Positions 168-8,650 of a DNA stretch of 8,650 bases are shown one piece after another. The stretch's first letter is position 1; every line of letters begins with the position of its first letter. The position numbers were made by a program, and so were the translations under genes. The DNA is taken from the NCBI GenBank assembly GCA_003554345.1, contig PWGE01000199.1, forward strand, positions 1-8,650. Direction: 5' to 3'. Origin of the DNA: T1SED10-198M sp003554345 [NCBI: Candidatus Sumerlaeota bacterium]. GTDB lineage: Bacteria; Sumerlaeota; T1SED10-198M. The notes beneath the pieces are model-generated. The model was not told the origin of the DNA, did not search any database, and saw nothing but the letters and a program-made list of their open reading frames with translations.

Positions 168-950
168 TTACTTCTTCAGCATTTTATGAAGTTTCTCTAT
201 ATGTTTTTGTGCTCGTTGCTGGTATTTATCTTCGCCCATTTCTTTAGCAACAGTGAGGAGCGTCTCCCATTCTTCAAGTGCTTGTTCGTACCACTGCTGT
301 TTTTTTTCATATAATAAAGCCAGATTGTTTCGAGCCGGCAAATAGGTGGGATCTTCACGGAGGGCGTTTTTGAAGTTTTGTATTGCTTTATACAATTTCC
401 CTTCATTAAGATAATTGAGAGCTTCCCGACAATAGGAACATATCATTTCTTTTTTACGTTTTTTTCTTTCCTCAATGGATAGATCCTGTACGGATGAAGT
501 GCTCTTCTTCTGAGATGCTCTTTTATTATTGTCGGTGGTTTGTTCAGTGATAGCGGCTGATTTTTTAGTATCAAAAGTGGCTGTTTCATCTTCTAATTTG
601 GCGTGTGCTTTTTTTAAAAGGCTCTTATCAGGCATTTCATCTTCTGTTTTGAGAATCTTGAAAATCATATCCAGTTTAGCAACCGAGAAAAGGGTTTTTA
701 CTTCATTTTTAGGAGCGACGAGGTAAGTCTGGGCATTGTACTTGTTGGCAGACATTTTGATTCCTACCAGAAGACCCAGTCCAGCACTGTCGATAAAATC
801 CACTTCCTTCAAATGTATGAAAATATTTTTGAGAGAAGGGTTCAGTCTGCCAATTACCGTATCTTTTAACTGTCGGCATTGATTTAACATGAGCCGACCT
901 CTCAAAAATATTATGAGATTTCTTTCTACCTGTATAATTCGAGCATTCAT
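168..950 (-). CDS. STAS-domain protein with C-terminal TPRs (anti-sigma-factor-antagonist-like)
   Basis: This 260-residue cytoplasmic protein has a STAS domain at about residues 3-105. The motif FIDSAGLGLLVG (52-63) places Ser55 where SpoIIAA Ser58 and RsbV Ser56 are phosphorylated by their partner kinases, and LDMIFKI (93-99) is the typical closing helix. A Lys/Ser/Thr-rich linker (106-166) follows, then a C-S-Y-C pair (171-174), then two TPR-like helical hairpins (about 173-206 and 207-240) ending in a basic helix. No signal peptide or membrane segment is seen. Such proteins act by phosphorylation-controlled binding; the TPRs would add a protein-docking surface. It is a paralogue of the preceding STAS gene, 50 nt upstream: the DSxG serine has the same residue number and both share LLVGxKMSAxK. 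The start is set by the STAS domain beginning at once; no strong Shine-Dalgarno is visible, only a distant GAG in an AT-rich leader. The partner is unknown. Confidence 0.85.
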   Translation of the reverse strand: MNARIIQVERNLIIFLRGRLMLNQCRQLKDTVIGRLNPSLKNIFIHLKEVDFIDSAGLGLLVGIKMSANKYNAQTYLVAPKNEVKTLFSVAKLDMIFKILKTEDEMPDKSLLKKAHAKLEDETATFDTKKSAAITEQTTDNNKRASQKKSTSSVQDLSIEERKKRKKEMICSYCREALNYLNEGKLYKAIQNFKNALREDPTYLPARNNLALLYEKKQQWYEQALEEWETLLTVAKEMGEDKYQQRAQKHIEKLHKMLKK

Positions 951-1000: not shown

Positions 1001-1798
1001 TTATCTTTTTTCAGGAGAATCATCATCCTGTGTGCTTTTTTCAGAGGAGTAAGAAGAAGTACCTGGCTTACCGGGATTGCTATTCAGACATTCTATAATA
1101 TTTTGCAACTGGTTTATTTTCTGGCTTGTTTTATTGAGATTGGTGGCCAACTTGTTGATATATACAGCAGAATAGGTCTTTCCTCCTTCCTTAAGGACGT
1201 TTTGCAGGTTGCTTATTGTCTCCTGTAATCTGATACTCGATATCCCTTCTTTCAACATTTCAAAACATGCTTCGTTAGAAAGTGGCTTGCCGGGATTGCT
1301 TTTATTTTCAGAGAAGGGGGGAGAATCGATCTCCTTATTTTCTGCCGCTTTAGGGGGGTCGCTTGCTGTGATGGTAAAGGGTTGGGTCTCAGGGAGAAAA
1401 CCGATAGATTTATGAGAATTAAAAATCTCGCGGTATAATATGTCCTGATTCTTAACTTTCTGCTGAATTTTCTTTACGGGAATATCATCAAGAGAAGAAT
1501 ATACGGAAAAAATATGATCAAGCCTGGTTTGAGCCAGGAGTTCAATTATATTTTTGCCGGGTGATATCAGATAAAAACGAGAATTAATTTTGCCGGCCGA
1601 CATCTTTAATCCTACTAACAGGCCCATTCCTGAACTGTCAATAAATTTTACATCACGCAGGTCCAGTACAATTTCTTCTACACGAGGCAGATAGTAGGCC
1701 AGAATAAGCTTTCTCAATTCAGGGATGACTTTTGAGAGCAATTTTCCCTGGAAACGAAAAAATAAGATAGAGTTGGAATCATCCACATATAATTGCAT
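1001..1798 (-). CDS. STAS-domain protein with C-terminal helical region (anti-sigma-factor-antagonist-like)
   Basis: This 265-residue soluble protein carries an N-terminal STAS domain (about 1-108). FIDSSGMGLLVG (52-63) is the SpoIIAA/RsbV signature with Ser55 at the phosphorylatable position, and LDHIFSV (93-99) is the final helix. Residues 110-170 are a polar, Pro/Ser-rich linker. Residues about 175-240 look helical and heptad-like (possible coiled coil), and the tail (241-265) is polar and disordered in character. The hexapeptide SNPGKP occurs twice (167-172 and 240-245), bracketing the helical segment. The gene starts only 14 nt after the acidic coiled-coil gene stops; an AGGA sits 9 nt before the ATG, so the two are probably co-transcribed. 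In partner-switching systems the unphosphorylated antagonist sequesters an anti-sigma kinase; none is encoded here, so the partner is unknown. A paralogue follows 50 nt downstream. Confidence 0.86.
   Translation of the reverse strand: MQLYVDDSNSILFFRFQGKLLSKVIPELRKLILAYYLPRVEEIVLDLRDVKFIDSSGMGLLVGLKMSAGKINSRFYLISPGKNIIELLAQTRLDHIFSVYSSLDDIPVKKIQQKVKNQDILYREIFNSHKSIGFLPETQPFTITASDPPKAAENKEIDSPPFSENKSNPGKPLSNEACFEMLKEGISSIRLQETISNLQNVLKEGGKTYSAVYINKLATNLNKTSQKINQLQNIIECLNSNPGKPGTSSYSSEKSTQDDDSPEKR
1064..1300. repeat. Pair of 18-nt direct repeats inside the 265-aa STAS gene
   Basis: The 18-nt sequence at 1064-1081 recurs at 1283-1300 with one mismatch (tggctt-a/g-ccgggattgct). On the coding strand it encodes SNPGKP both times, once before and once after the helical segment at residues 175-240. 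The near identity at DNA level suggests a fairly recent internal duplication or conversion of the motif rather than chance. Confidence 0.6.
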
Positions 1799-1812: not shown

Positions 1813-2154
1813 TTACTCATCAAGAAAACTGGTATCAAGCTCTTCATCTTCTTCTTCTAGAATATTTTCATCCTCTGCCTCTTCATTGTCTCCGGATGCT
1901 TTTTCCTTTTCATTGCCTTCTTCTTCCTCCTGGTTTTCTTCTTTGTCTTCGGAGTCCGAAGAGGATGAGTCTTCAGCAATACCAAGTGCTTTCAGGGCAT
2001 CCTGGCGAAGATTTTCCACTCCGTCACGTCGGGACTGCAATTCTTCAATCTGGTTTTTTAAGCCTTCCAGTTCTTTGTCTAATTCCTGGAGCATCTCTTC
2101 AGCCGTAATAAGAATTTCGTTCATTTTCTTTTCCATTAATTCTGAGAAAGCCAT
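1813..2154 (-). CDS. Small coiled-coil protein with strongly acidic tail, unknown function
   Basis: I do not recognise a family for this 113-residue protein. Residues about 5-50 form a charged amphipathic helix with leucine/isoleucine heptad spacing (for example MLQELDKELEGLKNQIEELQ), so a coiled-coil dimer is likely. Residues 61-113 are a disordered-looking tail in which 28 of 53 residues are Asp or Glu and only three are Lys, with a serine cluster SSSSDSED at 63-70 that would suit phosphorylation. No signal peptide or membrane segment is present. The ATG at 2154 is supported by AAAGGAG (plus-strand 2161-2167) six nt upstream, the best ribosome binding site in the minus-strand block. It is the first gene after the promoter at 2234-2261 and lies 14 nt before the first STAS gene. 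A role as adaptor, scaffold or kinase substrate is inferred from composition and position only. It lacks the GrpE fold signature and is shorter than GrpE. Confidence 0.78.
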   Translation of the reverse strand: MAFSELMEKKMNEILITAEEMLQELDKELEGLKNQIEELQSRRDGVENLRQDALKALGIAEDSSSSDSEDKEENQEEEEGNEKEKASGDNEEAEDENILEEEDEELDTSFLDE

Positions 2155-2274: not shown

Positions 2275-5200
2275 CTAAAACTGTGTATCAGAACTGATAC
2301 TGATTAAATCCTTTAGCACTTCGCTGACTGCCTGGTAGCGGAGTGAGAGTTTCTTCTGAAGACATTTCATAATAACAGTTTCCATTTGTGGGGAGCAGTA
2401 TTTTGGAGGAGAAGGGGTGGTATTTAAATGATGAAAAGTAATATCACCCTGGAGAAAGGGCGGTTTTCCGGAAATCATTTCATACAGCAGGACGCCCAGG
2501 GAATACACATCGGCTCGAAAATCAATCTCATGACTGGTTATCTGTTCGGGCGACATGTAGAGAGGAGTCCCCACAATTTCCCCTATTTTGGTAACTTCTG
2601 TACCACCGCGGGTGGATTTGGCAATACCGAAATCACTCACTTTAATGACCTGTTCTTTGGTGATAAGGATGTTTGCCGGTTTGATGTCCCGGTGGATAAT
2701 CCCTTTTTCATGGGCATATTGCAGGGCCATGCAGATTTGTTTGGCATAAAACAGAACTTTCTTCTCCGGCAAAGGGCCGTGACTGCGCAAAATGCTTTTC
2801 ATATCTTTCCCATTAATATATTCCATTGAAATATACTTTATACGATTAATTTCGCCGAAATCATAAATCCTGACGATATTGGGATGAGTGAGTTTTCTGG
2901 TAGCCTTAGCCTCTCTTTTAAATCGTTTAAGGGCTTCTGCATCCTGGGCCAGCGTATTTGCCAGGATTTTCAATACCACCTTTTCTTCCAGTGCAGTATC
3001 GTAAGCTTCATATACTACCCCCATGCTTCCCCGGTTGATTTCTTTAAGCTGAACAAATCGATTTCCCAGAAAATTGCTGTTGGCGGAAGAATAATTATTC
3101 AGTTCGGATGAGAAGGGAGTAGGAGTTTCATCTATTTGGGTTCTTTCATAATGAGCGGCTTTCTTTAAGCGGTGGTGTTCCTGCAACGCATCCCGGTAGT
3201 TAATATCTTCTGCCAGAATGTTTTCCAGGGCATTTACAGCGTTCATATATTGACCTTCATCTTCGAAAGCCCTGTTAAGTTGATAGAGGCTTTCTTTGAT
3301 CTCCTCATCGACCCGACATTTTTTAAATTGCTGTAAAGCAATGTAATACAGCTTTTTTTCAAAAAAAGCCCTTCCCAGGTACTTGCATGCTTCATGCTGG
3401 AGATCTGAAGAAAAGGAGGCCCTTTGGAGATAGGTGATGGCAGAGTTGATATTTTTAGTCTCAAAGTATAATTTCCCGAGCTTGAGTTTTATCTCGTGTG
3501 CCTGGGGGTTTTCCTCAATAATCTGGTGATAGACTGTAAGCAGCTGTTCTAACACTGCCGAATTATTTTTATCCAACTGCCGGGCTTTTTCCAGACAAAT
3601 TGCACATTCATAAAGGTCCCCCTGCAACTTATGAAAGAAGGCTTTTTTCTGATAAAATTCAGCCGGTTTTTCTTCCCATTTTTCCGCGATTTGCTGATAC
3701 TTTTCCAAAACATAAGGAAGAGCTTCTTTATTTTCTTCATGGATCATATTCAGCAAAGTACATGCTTTTGGGTATTTTTCCTGCGATAGATACACATCCA
3801 CTAATTTCTTGCTGTTGGTCTCCCCCTCAAAAGGAACAACGTCGGAGCTTTCCACACTCTCTTTTTCTTCTTCGGAAGAGGTTTCTTTCGGTTCTTCTTT
3901 TGGTGCAGGTGAAACTTCACTTTCTTCAGGTGCAGAATCAGGGTTGGGGACCTTCCCGGAAGAGAGAGAAGAGGAGAGGGTGGGGTTTGTATCTTCATTT
4001 ACCATGGTTGTTTTAGTTTCCATGGTGTCCTCAGCCTGGTCAAGGGTGGGTGAAAGGTGTACCTTTAAGGAGGCGCCGGATTTTTGTTCTTCTGCCATAA
4101 CCTCCAGTATCCCATCAGCATCGATGGCAAAACTCACTTCAATGCGGGGTTCTCCTTTTTTGAGAGGCGGTATCTCGCTCAGGGTGTAATAGCCAAGCGA
4201 AATATTTTCAGAGGCAACCCGGCTTTTCCCCTGTAAAATATGAATGGGCACCAGGGCCTGGTTATCATGGGTGGTGGTGAATATTTTACTTTTGCGGGTA
4301 GGGACAGTAGAATTTTTTTCTATGATAATGGAAAATTGGTCATTAACCGTTTCCACTCCCAGGTTAACAGGTGTCACATCAAGGAGAAGTATTTCCGCCA
4401 GTGAACCGGTTAAAATTCCACCCTGGATAACGGCTCCCCTGGCAACAATTTCATCAGGATTCAAACCGCGAAAGGTCTTTTTATTAAAGAAGTTCTCGCC
4501 CTCTTTTACTACCAGGGGATTTCTGGTAGTACCTCCGGCCAGGATTACTCTGTCAATATTTTCCATCCTCATATTAGCAGAAGAAAGGACTTCCTCGGTA
4601 ATGGCGAGACTCTTTTTGATGATAGGGGTAAGAAGTTCCTTAAGGGATTCTGATTTCAGATTATAATGCAGGTGCAGTGGCGAGTTATCCTTTGAAGCAA
4701 TAAAAGGCAGCGTAATATCTGTTTCCGAAAGCTGGGAGAGTTCACATTTGGCCTGTTCACAGGCTTCTTTTAATCTTATCAGGGCACTATGGTTTTGCCT
4801 GAGATCATATCCTGTTTCCTGGAGAAATTCTTTGCTGATGAGTTGTAAGATAGCTTCATCAATATCATCGCCGCCCAGAAAGGTATCACCCCCCGTGGCA
4901 ACCACTTCAAAGGTGGTCCTGGAGAGATTCAGAAGGGTGAGGTCAAAGGTTCCGCCTCCAAAATCATAAACTGCCACCACTTCCGCATCACTCTTTGAAT
5001 AACTGTATGCCAGAGAAGCGGCGGTAGGTTCATTGATAAGACGAAGCACTTCTAATCCCGCCATTTCGGCAGCGAGTTTTGTTTTTTCTCTCTGCAGATT
5101 GTTGAAGTAGGCAGGAACGGTGAGGATGGTTTTTTTTACCTTTTGTCCCAGGTAGGTTTCCGCGTCATTTTTTATTTTCAATAAAATGTTTGAAGATATT

Positions 5201-5538
5201 TCTTCCGGGGTGTAGGTGGCAAACTCGGTTTCAATGAGAATTTCATCCTCGTCCCCTCCTCTTATTTTGAAAGGAAAGGAGGAGGTATACTCTTCCACTT
5301 CAGAAAACTTCTTACCAATAAAGCGCTTTATAGAAAAAATGGTGTTTTGGGGATTTATGGTGCTCTGGCGTTTCGCCAATTCACCTACCAGAATTTCATC
5401 TTTTGACTTGAATGCCACGATAGATGGGGTTTTATTCTTCCCTTCCTGGTTGGGAATAATGACGGGTTCTTTTCCATCAAGAATGGCACATACAGAATAG
5501 GTGGTGCCTAAATCAATACCGAGAACAATTTCACTCAT
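2275..5538 (-). CDS. HSP70-TPR-Ser/Thr protein kinase fusion protein
   Basis: This is a single uninterrupted 1087-residue protein. Residues 1-382 are a complete DnaK-type ATPase: phosphate-1 GIDLGTTYS (7-15), Lys71 and Thr197 at the DnaK Lys70 and Thr199 positions, NEPTAASLAY (169-178), phosphate-2 DFGGGTFDL (192-200) and adenosine motif ILAGGTTRNP (332-341). The interdomain linker ILLLD (383-387) and the beta substrate-binding domain (about 388-497) are kept. The helical lid is missing; an acidic Ser/Glu/Pro-rich linker (about 500-570) stands in its place. TPR units follow at about 577-610, 626-659, 681-714, 715-748 and 749-782, the last three exactly 34 residues apart. Residues about 825-1083 are a Hanks-type kinase: glycine loop 834-842, Lys857, Glu876, HRDIKPAN (949-956), DFG (969-971), SPE (996-998). 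No membrane segment is seen, so it should be cytosolic. The start is fixed by the HSP70 N-terminus; the Shine-Dalgarno is weak (AGGT, 4 nt away). Likely ATP-driven client or stress sensing coupled to phosphorylation; targets are unknown. Confidence 0.95.
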   Translation of the reverse strand: MSEIVLGIDLGTTYSVCAILDGKEPVIIPNQEGKNKTPSIVAFKSKDEILVGELAKRQSTINPQNTIFSIKRFIGKKFSEVEEYTSSFPFKIRGGDEDEILIETEFATYTPEEISSNILLKIKNDAETYLGQKVKKTILTVPAYFNNLQREKTKLAAEMAGLEVLRLINEPTAASLAYSYSKSDAEVVAVYDFGGGTFDLTLLNLSRTTFEVVATGGDTFLGGDDIDEAILQLISKEFLQETGYDLRQNHSALIRLKEACEQAKCELSQLSETDITLPFIASKDNSPLHLHYNLKSESLKELLTPIIKKSLAITEEVLSSANMRMENIDRVILAGGTTRNPLVVKEGENFFNKKTFRGLNPDEIVARGAVIQGGILTGSLAEILLLDVTPVNLGVETVNDQFSIIIEKNSTVPTRKSKIFTTTHDNQALVPIHILQGKSRVASENISLGYYTLSEIPPLKKGEPRIEVSFAIDADGILEVMAEEQKSGASLKVHLSPTLDQAEDTMETKTTMVNEDTNPTLSSSLSSGKVPNPDSAPEESEVSPAPKEEPKETSSEEEKESVESSDVVPFEGETNSKKLVDVYLSQEKYPKACTLLNMIHEENKEALPYVLEKYQQIAEKWEEKPAEFYQKKAFFHKLQGDLYECAICLEKARQLDKNNSAVLEQLLTVYHQIIEENPQAHEIKLKLGKLYFETKNINSAITYLQRASFSSDLQHEACKYLGRAFFEKKLYYIALQQFKKCRVDEEIKESLYQLNRAFEDEGQYMNAVNALENILAEDINYRDALQEHHRLKKAAHYERTQIDETPTPFSSELNNYSSANSNFLGNRFVQLKEINRGSMGVVYEAYDTALEEKVVLKILANTLAQDAEALKRFKREAKATRKLTHPNIVRIYDFGEINRIKYISMEYINGKDMKSILRSHGPLPEKKVLFYAKQICMALQYAHEKGIIHRDIKPANILITKEQVIKVSDFGIAKSTRGGTEVTKIGEIVGTPLYMSPEQITSHEIDFRADVYSLGVLLYEMISGKPPFLQGDITFHHLNTTPSPPKYCSPQMETVIMKCLQKKLSLRYQAVSEVLKDLISISSDTQF

Positions 5539-6905: not shown

Positions 6906-8650
6906 ATGACGGTCGGCAAAAGTATTTATCGCAAGGATGTGCTGGAAAAAGTGACAGGGGAATCCCGTTATGTGGATGATTATTCCTTGCCGGGCATGCT
7001 CTATGGCAAGATTGTCATGGGCGGGGTTCCGCATGCTGTCATAAAAGATATAAAAGTGCCGCCTGTTGGCGAAGATGAAGCGGTGCTAACCGCCCGGGAT
7101 ATACCTGGCGAAAACCAGATAGGGGTGATGAAAAAAGATCATCCCCTGCTTGCAGAAAAAGTGCTTCGTTATCGTTATGAAGCGGTGGCTCTGATTGCGG
7201 CTTCATCTTCTTCCCGCCTGGAGAAACTTGCTTCCTGCATCGAACTGCAATGGGAAAAGAAAACCGCTGCCCATCATTATGAAGATTCTTTGAAAAAGAA
7301 TGCTCCTCTTATTCATGAAGAGGGAAATGTGCCCATTCATAATCGTTTGCGCAGGGGAAATGTAGAAGAGGCGTTTTCTGAATGTGCGTTTACCGTGGAG
7401 CGCCGTTTCAGTACTCCCTACCAGGAACAGCTTTATCTGGAGACCCAGGGAGTAGTGGCGGTAATGCAAGAACAGAAGATGCACATATACGGTTCGATTC
7501 AGTGTCCCTTCTATGTACGTAAGGCGGTATCTGCGGTGCTGGGAATGCCTCTTGCCTCGGTGCGGGTCATACAAACTGCCATAGGGGGCGCTTTCGGCGG
7601 AAAAGAAGATGTGCCCAATGAACACTGCAGTGCTGCTGCTCTGCTGGCTTTGAAAACCGGACGACCGGTCAAGATAGTCTACGACCGTACGGAGGATATC
7701 CAGCGGTCCAGTAAACGGCACCGCATGTTCATGACGTACCGTTATGGATGTGACCGGGAAGGACGTCTAAAAGCGGCAAAAGCAGAAATATATGCCGATA
7801 TTGGCGCCTATGCCACTCTTTCTCCCGCCGTCATCTTTCGTTCTTTTGCGCATGCCCTGGGTCCGTATGTGATTCCCAATGCGCATGTTGATATTTATGG
7901 AGTCTACACCAATAACCAGCCGGTCGGCGCCTTTCGGGGGTTTGGCACTCCTCAGGTTGTCTCTGGGCATGAAGCCATCATTGATGAGCTTGCGCAGAAA
8001 GCGGGCATTGATCCCCTGGATTTTCGAAAGAAGAATATCCTGAGGTACGGAGAAAAGACCGTACACGGGCAGAAATTGACTGATAGTGTGGGGCTGGAGA
8101 AAACCCTTAATGCTGTTGAACCTTATTACCGGGAAATGAAAAAAGAGGCTGAAGAAAACAATCGAAAAAAGAGCGATACCCGCCTGGGAGTGGGTCTGAG
8201 CAGCATATATTACGGCAACGGCCTGGGAGTAGCCGGAAAAGCGCTGGATGCAGCGGGTTCATTTGTCCAGGTGAATCATGATGGTTCTGTGTACATCTCA
8301 AATGGTTGTGTGGATATGGGACAGGGAGCTATAACCGTCCTCAGCCAGATTGCCGCCGAAGGATTGGGTTTTCCGGTAGAAGCGGTTTACCCCAATTTTA
8401 ATGTTGATACCACTGTTGTTCAGGATAGCGGTCCCACAGTTGCTTCACGAACCACCGTTATGTGCGGCAATGCCCTTTTAGATGCTGGTAAGAAGATCAA
8501 GAAGCGGTTAATAGCGGTGGCGGGCGAGATACTGCGGGAAAATAACATTTCCTGCCGGGATGAAGACCTCACATTGACCGAGGGTATACTGTATCATCGT
8601 GGCGAAGAAGTGCCGGCTCTTAACTATCAGGATATCACGGCAGCCTGCCT
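6906..8650 (+). CDS. xdhA: Xanthine dehydrogenase-type molybdopterin-binding subunit, N-terminal 581 residues
   Basis: The frame is open from the ATG at 6906 to the right edge (581 full codons); the family usually has about 750-780 residues, so the C-terminus with the catalytic glutamate is outside. AAAGGAG lies 8 nt upstream. Residues 1-130 match the hammerhead domain of molybdenum hydroxylases (opening DVLEKVTGESRYVDD). Cofactor-domain motifs follow: QEQLYLET (173-180), SIQCPF (197-202), GGAFGGKED (227-235), GAFRGFGTPQ (341-350) and DMGQG (470-474). Gln199, Glu234 and Arg312 keep the mutual spacing (35 and 78 residues) of bovine Gln767/Glu802/Arg880 and Rhodobacter Gln197/Glu232/Arg310. These bind purine in xanthine dehydrogenase, while aldehyde oxidases differ at the Glu and Arg positions. 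Hydroxylation of hypoxanthine/xanthine is therefore likely. The FAD and iron-sulfur subunits are not in view and may follow downstream. It is divergent from, and functionally unrelated to, the kinase block. The symbol follows E. coli usage. Confidence 0.92.
   Translation, partial: MTVGKSIYRKDVLEKVTGESRYVDDYSLPGMLYGKIVMGGVPHAVIKDIKVPPVGEDEAVLTARDIPGENQIGVMKKDHPLLAEKVLRYRYEAVALIAASSSSRLEKLASCIELQWEKKTAAHHYEDSLKKNAPLIHEEGNVPIHNRLRRGNVEEAFSECAFTVERRFSTPYQEQLYLETQGVVAVMQEQKMHIYGSIQCPFYVRKAVSAVLGMPLASVRVIQTAIGGAFGGKEDVPNEHCSAAALLALKTGRPVKIVYDRTEDIQRSSKRHRMFMTYRYGCDREGRLKAAKAEIYADIGAYATLSPAVIFRSFAHALGPYVIPNAHVDIYGVYTNNQPVGAFRGFGTPQVVSGHEAIIDELAQKAGIDPLDFRKKNILRYGEKTVHGQKLTDSVGLEKTLNAVEPYYREMKKEAEENNRKKSDTRLGVGLSSIYYGNGLGVAGKALDAAGSFVQVNHDGSVYISNGCVDMGQGAITVLSQIAAEGLGFPVEAVYPNFNVDTTVVQDSGPTVASRTTVMCGNALLDAGKKIKKRLIAVAGEILRENNISCRDEDLTLTEGILYHRGEEVPALNYQDITAAC

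Follow-up and report, generated by a model that had tools for sequence, protein, structure and literature searches.

A lidless HSP70-TPR-kinase fusion protein widespread in Sumerlaeota is a candidate sensor kinase

Results

A single gene encodes HSP70, TPR-like and kinase parts

The window, which is the whole 8,650-nucleotide stretch analysed here (contig PWGE01000199.1 of the Sumerlaeota bacterium T1SED10-198M sp003554345), carries on its minus strand a gene (2275..5538) for an HSP70-TPR-kinase fusion protein, followed by genes for a small acidic protein and two STAS proteins, which are described below. The gene was delimited by its single open reading frame (ORF), Pfam matches and a full-length alignment of 24 members. 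It starts with ATG, has no internal stop and codes for 1087 amino acids, in which the Pfam order from the N- to the C-terminus is HSP70, TPR-like helices and Pkinase. The original prediction that one continuous polypeptide is encoded at this locus was therefore borne out.

The source genome is a draft assembly of 2.55 Mb in 454 contigs, with a completeness of 87.66%, and the window is one of these contigs, as would be expected if two genes had been joined by an assembly or binning artefact. This explanation, to which we give practically no probability, is already refuted by recurrence across the phylum: the same domain order is present in 24 genomes, including a genome assembled as a single contig of 3,289,105 bp (G001). 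In addition, the G+C content (GC) is even along the gene (0.40-0.46 in the HSP70, linker, TPR and kinase parts; 0.43-0.44 at third codon positions). A chimera, a frameshift or a missed stop is ruled out on the same grounds. The GC of the window is 0.42, as compared with 0.38-0.44 in ten other stretches of the same genome.

Distribution of the fusion

A profile of the 24 full-length members was searched against 40 Sumerlaeota genomes, with 17 candidates scored in most of them. Since long frames reported by the search tool can include stops, fusions were called by stop-to-stop reading. HSP70 and Pkinase were found in one stop-free frame of 1087-1336 amino acids in 24 of the 40 genomes, the window's included. 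In four others (G019, G025, G027 and G037) a frame with both domains is clipped by the contig edge, and in a further four (G018, G026, G031 and G035) the HSP70 half runs off the contig; the kinase half begins another contig in G018 and G026, and none was identified in G031 and G035. In G008 two ORFs that part around the beta domain make up the fusion (L055:5462-9057), owing to either a sequencing error or a true split.

Pfam HSP70 and Pkinase match all 24 full-length members. Identity to the window protein is 37-42% for the other 23 members in the alignment, for which the N-termini of L034, L039, L042 and L048 were trimmed by hand to the HSP70 start. The architecture had been called unusual; it is so, yet it belongs to a conserved, phylum-wide family and is not a lone oddity. 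The proposed search for the same domain order elsewhere thus yielded 23 further Sumerlaeota members, each in one stop-free frame, and the possibility that homologues are always two separate genes does not hold.

Outside the phylum, no fusion was found among the matches listed for 115 genomes of other phyla (at most six candidates scored per genome). In one further phylum (58 genomes) there were 10 long-frame HSP70 matches, none with a kinase in the same stop-free frame. None of 72,556 plasmid records and none of 50,697 phage records covered 80% of the fusion query. At the level of abstracts, the open-licence PMC literature yielded no description of an HSP70-TPR-kinase fusion, and the accessible part of a paper on Sumerlaeota (PMC8092238) does not mention such a protein.

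The ATPase and the peptide cleft

Pfam HSP70 matches residues 5-564 of the window protein (E 3.4e-174, profile positions 1-562 of 599), and residues 5-507 align to residues 4-513 of E. coli DnaK (2KHO). The nucleotide-binding domain (NBD; residues 5-380, 4399..5526, minus strand) was delimited by this alignment and by conserved residues. D9, T12, K71, E170, T197, D199 and R339 are identical in all 24 fusions, as are R166 and N169 of the J-protein site, whose T172 is found in 23; the roles of these residues, and of those in the cleft and the kinase, are presumed from what is known of DnaK and of protein kinases. The interdomain linker LLLDVTP (residues 384-390, 4369..4389, minus strand) contains D387, which we take to correspond to D393 of E. 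coli DnaK and which is D in 21 and E in three of the 24. It is followed by the substrate-binding beta subdomain (SBD-beta; residues 391-500, 4039..4368, minus strand), defined by Pfam and the DnaK alignment, in which F420, Q427 and V430 are invariant in all fusions.

The protein thus has the phosphate and adenosine motifs of the NBD, the linker and the SBD-beta of a DnaK-type Hsp70, all aligning to DnaK. It differs from DnaK in its altered arch, in the absence of the SBD-alpha lid, in its C-terminal TPR and kinase parts, and in scores below the curated NCBIfam DnaK cut-offs (626.9 versus 648 for NF001413, 611.5 versus 822.55 for TIGR02350). At the position of DnaK M404 the 24 fusions have K (12), E (8), A (2), V (1) or F (1), and at the position of A429 all have T (T423 in the window). 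Because the three residues of the beta domain are invariant whereas the M404 and A429 positions are changed, the peptide cleft is kept, but under an arch that is not the usual one. These replacements, together with the loss of the lid, would suit an Hsp70 part that senses something other than unfolded clients, such as a dedicated partner, a small peptide in the altered cleft or the level of adenine nucleotides. The invariance of F420, Q427 and V430 and a DnaK alignment that holds throughout to residue 507 speak against such specialization, and we regard it as unlikely.

Absence of the SBD-alpha lid

In blastp comparisons none of the 24 fusion tails matched DnaK lids at E<=1e-3 (best 0.031), whereas 15 DnaK lids recognized each other in 105 of 105 pairs. 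With a lid profile, none of the 24 fusions reached E 1e-3; the best match, in L036, had 7.7 bits and E 0.011 and was confined to the first half of the profile. All 14 held-out HSP70s scored with this profile, of 15 intended, did match, 13 at E<=1.5e-35 and one at 1.1e-6. Four NCBIfam DnaK models end at profile positions 499-505 in the window protein; the lid of DnaK presumably begins at about residue 513. As judged from the sequences, all 24 fusions have lost the SBD-alpha lid, and a disordered linker and TPRs appear in its place. The original prediction of a client-binding beta domain therefore stood as far as SBD-beta is concerned, but without the lid and with an altered arch residue.

Lid loss and the altered arch make classical high-affinity client trapping unlikely. 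According to the part of PMC6017645 that was available, lidless DnaK retains ATP-dependent substrate affinity and exchanges substrate faster. Loss of the lid would thus be expected to give fast, reversible binding, which fits sensing or recruiting better than holding or refolding.

The tether, the TPR arm and the kinase

The place of the lid is taken by a low-complexity linker (residues 501-575, 3814..4038, minus strand), recognized by its lack of lid similarity, low confidence in the structure model and higher ratio of nonsynonymous to synonymous substitution rates (dN/dS). Its conservation among the 24 fusions is 0.32, as compared with 0.70-0.73 in the NBD, SBD-beta and kinase, and disorder is predicted from a predicted local distance difference test score (pLDDT) below 50 at residues 497-579. 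TPR-like helical repeats follow (residues 576-797, 3148..3813, minus strand), indicated by TPR_19 and by alternating helices in the model, which was used solely for helix pattern and disorder. TPR_19 matches residues 669-708 (28.9 bits, cut-off 25); other TPR families remain under their cut-offs in the window protein. The predicted TPRs were thus supported by one family over its cut-off, although profile support in the window protein itself is modest. TPR_19 is found at E<=1e-3 in 18 of the 24 fusions. By blocks, the pLDDT of the arm is 70-90 at residues 621-730 and falls towards both ends, and its best-kept part is a TPR block at about 681-770 (conservation 0.62 in the 24 fusions).

The C-terminal part is a Hanks-type Ser/Thr kinase domain (residues 826-1075, 2314..3063, minus strand), identified by Pfam (Pkinase at residues 829-1070, E 3.3e-59, 200.9 bits versus a cut-off of 31.7) and by catalytic residues. 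G837, K857, E876, H949, R950, D951, K953, N956, D969, G971, P997 and E998 are invariant in the 24 fusions, and F970 of the DFG motif is present in 23. With its Gly loop, K, E, HRD, DFG and APE elements the domain is of the Hanks type and is predicted to be capable of phosphotransfer. The 24-member alignment, in which the catalytic residues are kept, bears out the predicted intactness of the ATPase and kinase motifs. A complete kinase domain with catalytic motifs is shared with the PknB/Stk1 type. PknB is membrane-bound and carries PASTA repeats, whereas the fusion has no Pfam match to PASTA, has an N-terminal HSP70 and scores 315 bits with the curated PknB/Stk1 model (cut-off 450).

A long flexible tether, intact kinase motifs and lidless, fast-exchanging binding would also suit recruitment of substrates. 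The Hsp70 module could then be an address label that brings the kinase to misfolded proteins or client complexes, the kinase itself being constitutive or set by autophosphorylation. However, the ATPase and J-protein-site residues kept in 24 members go beyond the needs of a simple binding tag, and an address-label function appears improbable to us.

Origin and selection

In a tree of HSP70 sequences, a single branch separates 30 fused HSP70 parts from 30 unfused HSP70s, with a value of 98 in the Shimodaira-Hasegawa-like approximate likelihood ratio test (SH-aLRT). If the root lies among the 30 unfused sequences, the window HSP70 splits off first among the fused parts. This was a quick tree with long-branch warnings, the window being among the long branches, and was built without L052, whose N-terminus is truncated, without the split L055 and without L107, which lacks most of its NBD. 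The kinase tree, which also gave long-branch warnings and was built without L053 and L054, in which the kinase is truncated, and without L008, for which there was no row, places 29 fused kinase parts on one side of a branch with an SH-aLRT value of 88, which is weaker than for HSP70. Among five hand-chosen pairs one was saturated, and in the other four, with values that are rough owing to large synonymous differences, dN/dS was 0.10-0.19 in the NBD, 0.05-0.27 in SBD-beta, 0.045-0.26 in the kinase, 0.14-0.33 in the TPRs and 0.28-0.88 in the linker. By these estimates both the HSP70 and the kinase domains are under purifying selection. Since the HSP70 and kinase parts group in the trees and dN/dS is low, a single fusion early in the history of the phylum, passed down and retained for the function of both enzymes, would explain the pattern.

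In the kinase tree, the neighbours of the fused kinases come from large Sumerlaeota proteins with TPRs. One of these proteins (L092:1427-6262, 1611 amino acids) has FG-GAP repeats at its N-terminus, followed by TPR and Pkinase. Like the fusion, it and a 791-amino-acid protein of G040 combine TPR with kinase, and the kinases of L092 and L064 are 47% and 38% identical to that of the window; in contrast to the fusion, the N-terminus consists of FG-GAP repeats or of TPRs alone, with no HSP70. The FG-GAP repeats of L092 suggest that the N-terminus is a swappable slot. Such large TPR-kinases are also kept in the phylum, with relatives of L092 in L099-L102.

These proteins bear on the idea that the kinase controls the chaperone by phosphorylating either the Hsp70 to which it is fused or the housekeeping DnaK. 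The close tethering of Hsp70 and kinase would allow this, and DnaK is mentioned in bacterial phosphoproteome papers, as far as their accessible parts go. However, there would be little foldase activity to control in a lidless Hsp70, and the related TPR-kinases L092, L056 and L064 have no HSP70 match. We therefore consider control of the chaperone very unlikely.

Other pairings of Hsp70 and kinase

Two plasmid-borne proteins combine HSP70 and Pkinase in one coding sequence in other ways. HSP70-GrpE-Pkinase was found in three records of Halomicrobium plasmids, two of them from H. mukohataei (1158 amino acids); WP_012807418.1 of plasmid pHmuk01 (L144:3593-7069) is annotated merely as GrpE. In this protein the phosphate-2 residues of the ATPase are changed and, as judged by eye, there is an extra SBD-beta-like copy at the start. 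The other, in a single record of a Streptomyces anulatus plasmid (L145:3740-6163, WP_228183974.1, annotated as Hsp70 family protein), has 807 amino acids with Pkinase preceding HSP70, and ends soon after SBD-beta. Both resemble the Sumerlaeota fusion in having no match to the lid profile at E<=0.1 (none at all in Streptomyces; 3.8 bits, E 0.18 in Halomicrobium), and differ from it in domain order, in having no TPR match and in an HSP70 that is about 34% identical. The best stretch of the Pfam HSP70 match ends at 492/599 in Streptomyces and at 575/599 in Halomicrobium, and one DnaK lid aligns weakly to the latter (E 0.011). The Halomicrobium protein may thus keep a remnant of the lid, Streptomyces being the clearer lidless case. 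The different domain orders suggest separate origins of the three fusions. That no convincing lid was found in any of the three types makes the absence of a lid from such fusions a testable rule.

In one family of another phylum, eight (L119, L120, L124 and L129-L133) of the nine genomes examined out of ten have a gene for a DnaK paralogue with a separate Ser/Thr kinase gene downstream of it. The paralogue in L120 covers the HSP70 profile to 598/599, lid included. These adjacent genes are a two-gene form of the Hsp70-kinase pairing. An operon-like run in Empedobacter (L009:5995-11829) encodes an HSP70-like protein (profile 3-403/599), a 225-amino-acid protein, a protein that fuses Pkinase to AAA, and one that resembles TerB but scores slightly below the cut-off.

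Proposed mode of action

The conserved HSP70-kinase architecture fits a chaperone-type sensor placed ahead of a kinase. We infer from it a soluble sensor kinase whose output would be set by the client- and J-protein-driven state of its lidless Hsp70, and give this reading an even chance of being right. Unfolded segments, or clients delivered by J-proteins, would bind SBD-beta; binding would change the ATP/ADP state and the docking of the NBD and SBD; this change would move the TPR-kinase part through the disordered tether and the TPR helices, and kinase output would follow the protein-folding state.

Several observations weigh against this reading. With K or E at the M404 position in 20 of the 24 fusions and T at the A429 position in all, the cleft may be unable to take up ordinary clients. 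The tether, which the signal would have to cross, is predicted to be disordered, and the full-length structure model is poor (mean pLDDT 54.8, mostly below 50 in the kinase region). Seven of the 40 Sumerlaeota genomes (G009, G010, G020, G023, G030, G034 and G039) yielded no fusion, and STAS genes were found near the fusion in just two of 28 loci (the window and L050; downstream sequence is absent for L049, L053 and L054 and amounts to about 500 bases for L039). Finally, the Pfam HSP70 match extends to 562/599, into the lid part of the profile, over proline-/acid-rich sequence. This extension probably reflects a chance match to low-complexity sequence, given that the lid tests fail and that the DnaK models and three structure alignments stop at 499-513.

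In IRE1 and PERK, the Hsp70 BiP is coupled to a kinase that reports the protein-folding state. BiP is a separate protein across a membrane, whereas the Sumerlaeota fusion is one chain and would, as we read it, be soluble. Bacteria are known to sense misfolding through the titration of other factors by free DnaK. Hanks kinases with sensor modules are already known; what is new here is that the sensor module is itself a chaperone. More tentatively, the built-in Hsp70 of Sumerlaeota may be the ligand-binding half of a receptor kinase, turned into a fast-exchanging sensor by loss of the lid, with a similar solution, likewise lacking a recognizable lid, reached separately in haloarchaea and Streptomyces. 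If the sensor reading is true, the fusion would be a bacterial equivalent, in a single chain, of an unfolded-protein sensor, coupling chaperone state directly and in an assayable way to phosphorylation, and kept across a phylum. As natural lidless Hsp70s, the fusions are also useful for asking what purpose the lid serves.

Neighbouring genes and STAS proteins

Downstream of the fusion gene, on the same strand, lie genes for a 113-amino-acid acidic protein (1813..2154), coiled-coil-like as judged by eye and without a family match over cut-off, for a STAS protein of the anti-sigma-factor-antagonist type with an IDSSG motif (1001..1798; Pfam STAS 58.4 bits) and for a STAS-TPR protein with an IDSAG motif (168..950; Pfam STAS 53 bits). 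Both STAS proteins are over the TIGR00377 cut-off and contain a candidate phosphorylatable Ser in their DSSG or DSAG motif; the available part of PMC13373217 supports a role for the Ser of this motif.

It is possible, by analogy, that the two STAS proteins are substrates of the fusion kinase, since M. tuberculosis PknD phosphorylates the anti-anti-sigma protein Rv0516c (PMC4601284, accessible part). Here too a Hanks kinase is paired with a STAS protein, but the link is by gene position alone, and the sensor of PknD is a beta-propeller and its target residue Thr2 (same source). Another kinase-STAS pair, CapK-CapS, has a GHKL kinase (PMC13373217, available part). Given the two of 28 loci mentioned above, the neighbouring STAS genes, whose conservation the original prediction had proposed to check, are not generally kept, a conserved kinase-STAS operon as a family trait is rejected, and the substrate idea is a local hypothesis. 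A promoter-like site lies between the fusion and the STAS genes (2261-2234, minus strand), so co-transcription cannot be assumed, although the number of such sites is near chance (18 found versus 13.7 expected). In G040, of another phylum, a STAS-like gene (L067:793-1134) is upstream of a kinase gene.

The window contig shows no RsbW-like gene, but it stops 167 bases beyond the last STAS gene and the genome is incomplete. Genome-wide, there are five STAS matches, and three SpoIIE-type phosphatases and one HATPase_c_2 exceed their cut-offs. This sole HATPase_c_2 gene has its own STAS and phosphatase in a SpoIIE-STAS-HATPase partner-switching cassette (G000:C27:1385-2777).

In L036, L041 and L054, which belong to one family, a conserved gene run precedes the fusion, the last protein of which is in L036 a double response regulator. 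The window contains no tRNA, no tandem repeat and no RNA family over gathering score. Its plus strand carries a divergent large ORF (6906-8650), which as judged by eye resembles a molybdopterin-binding subunit of the xanthine-dehydrogenase type.

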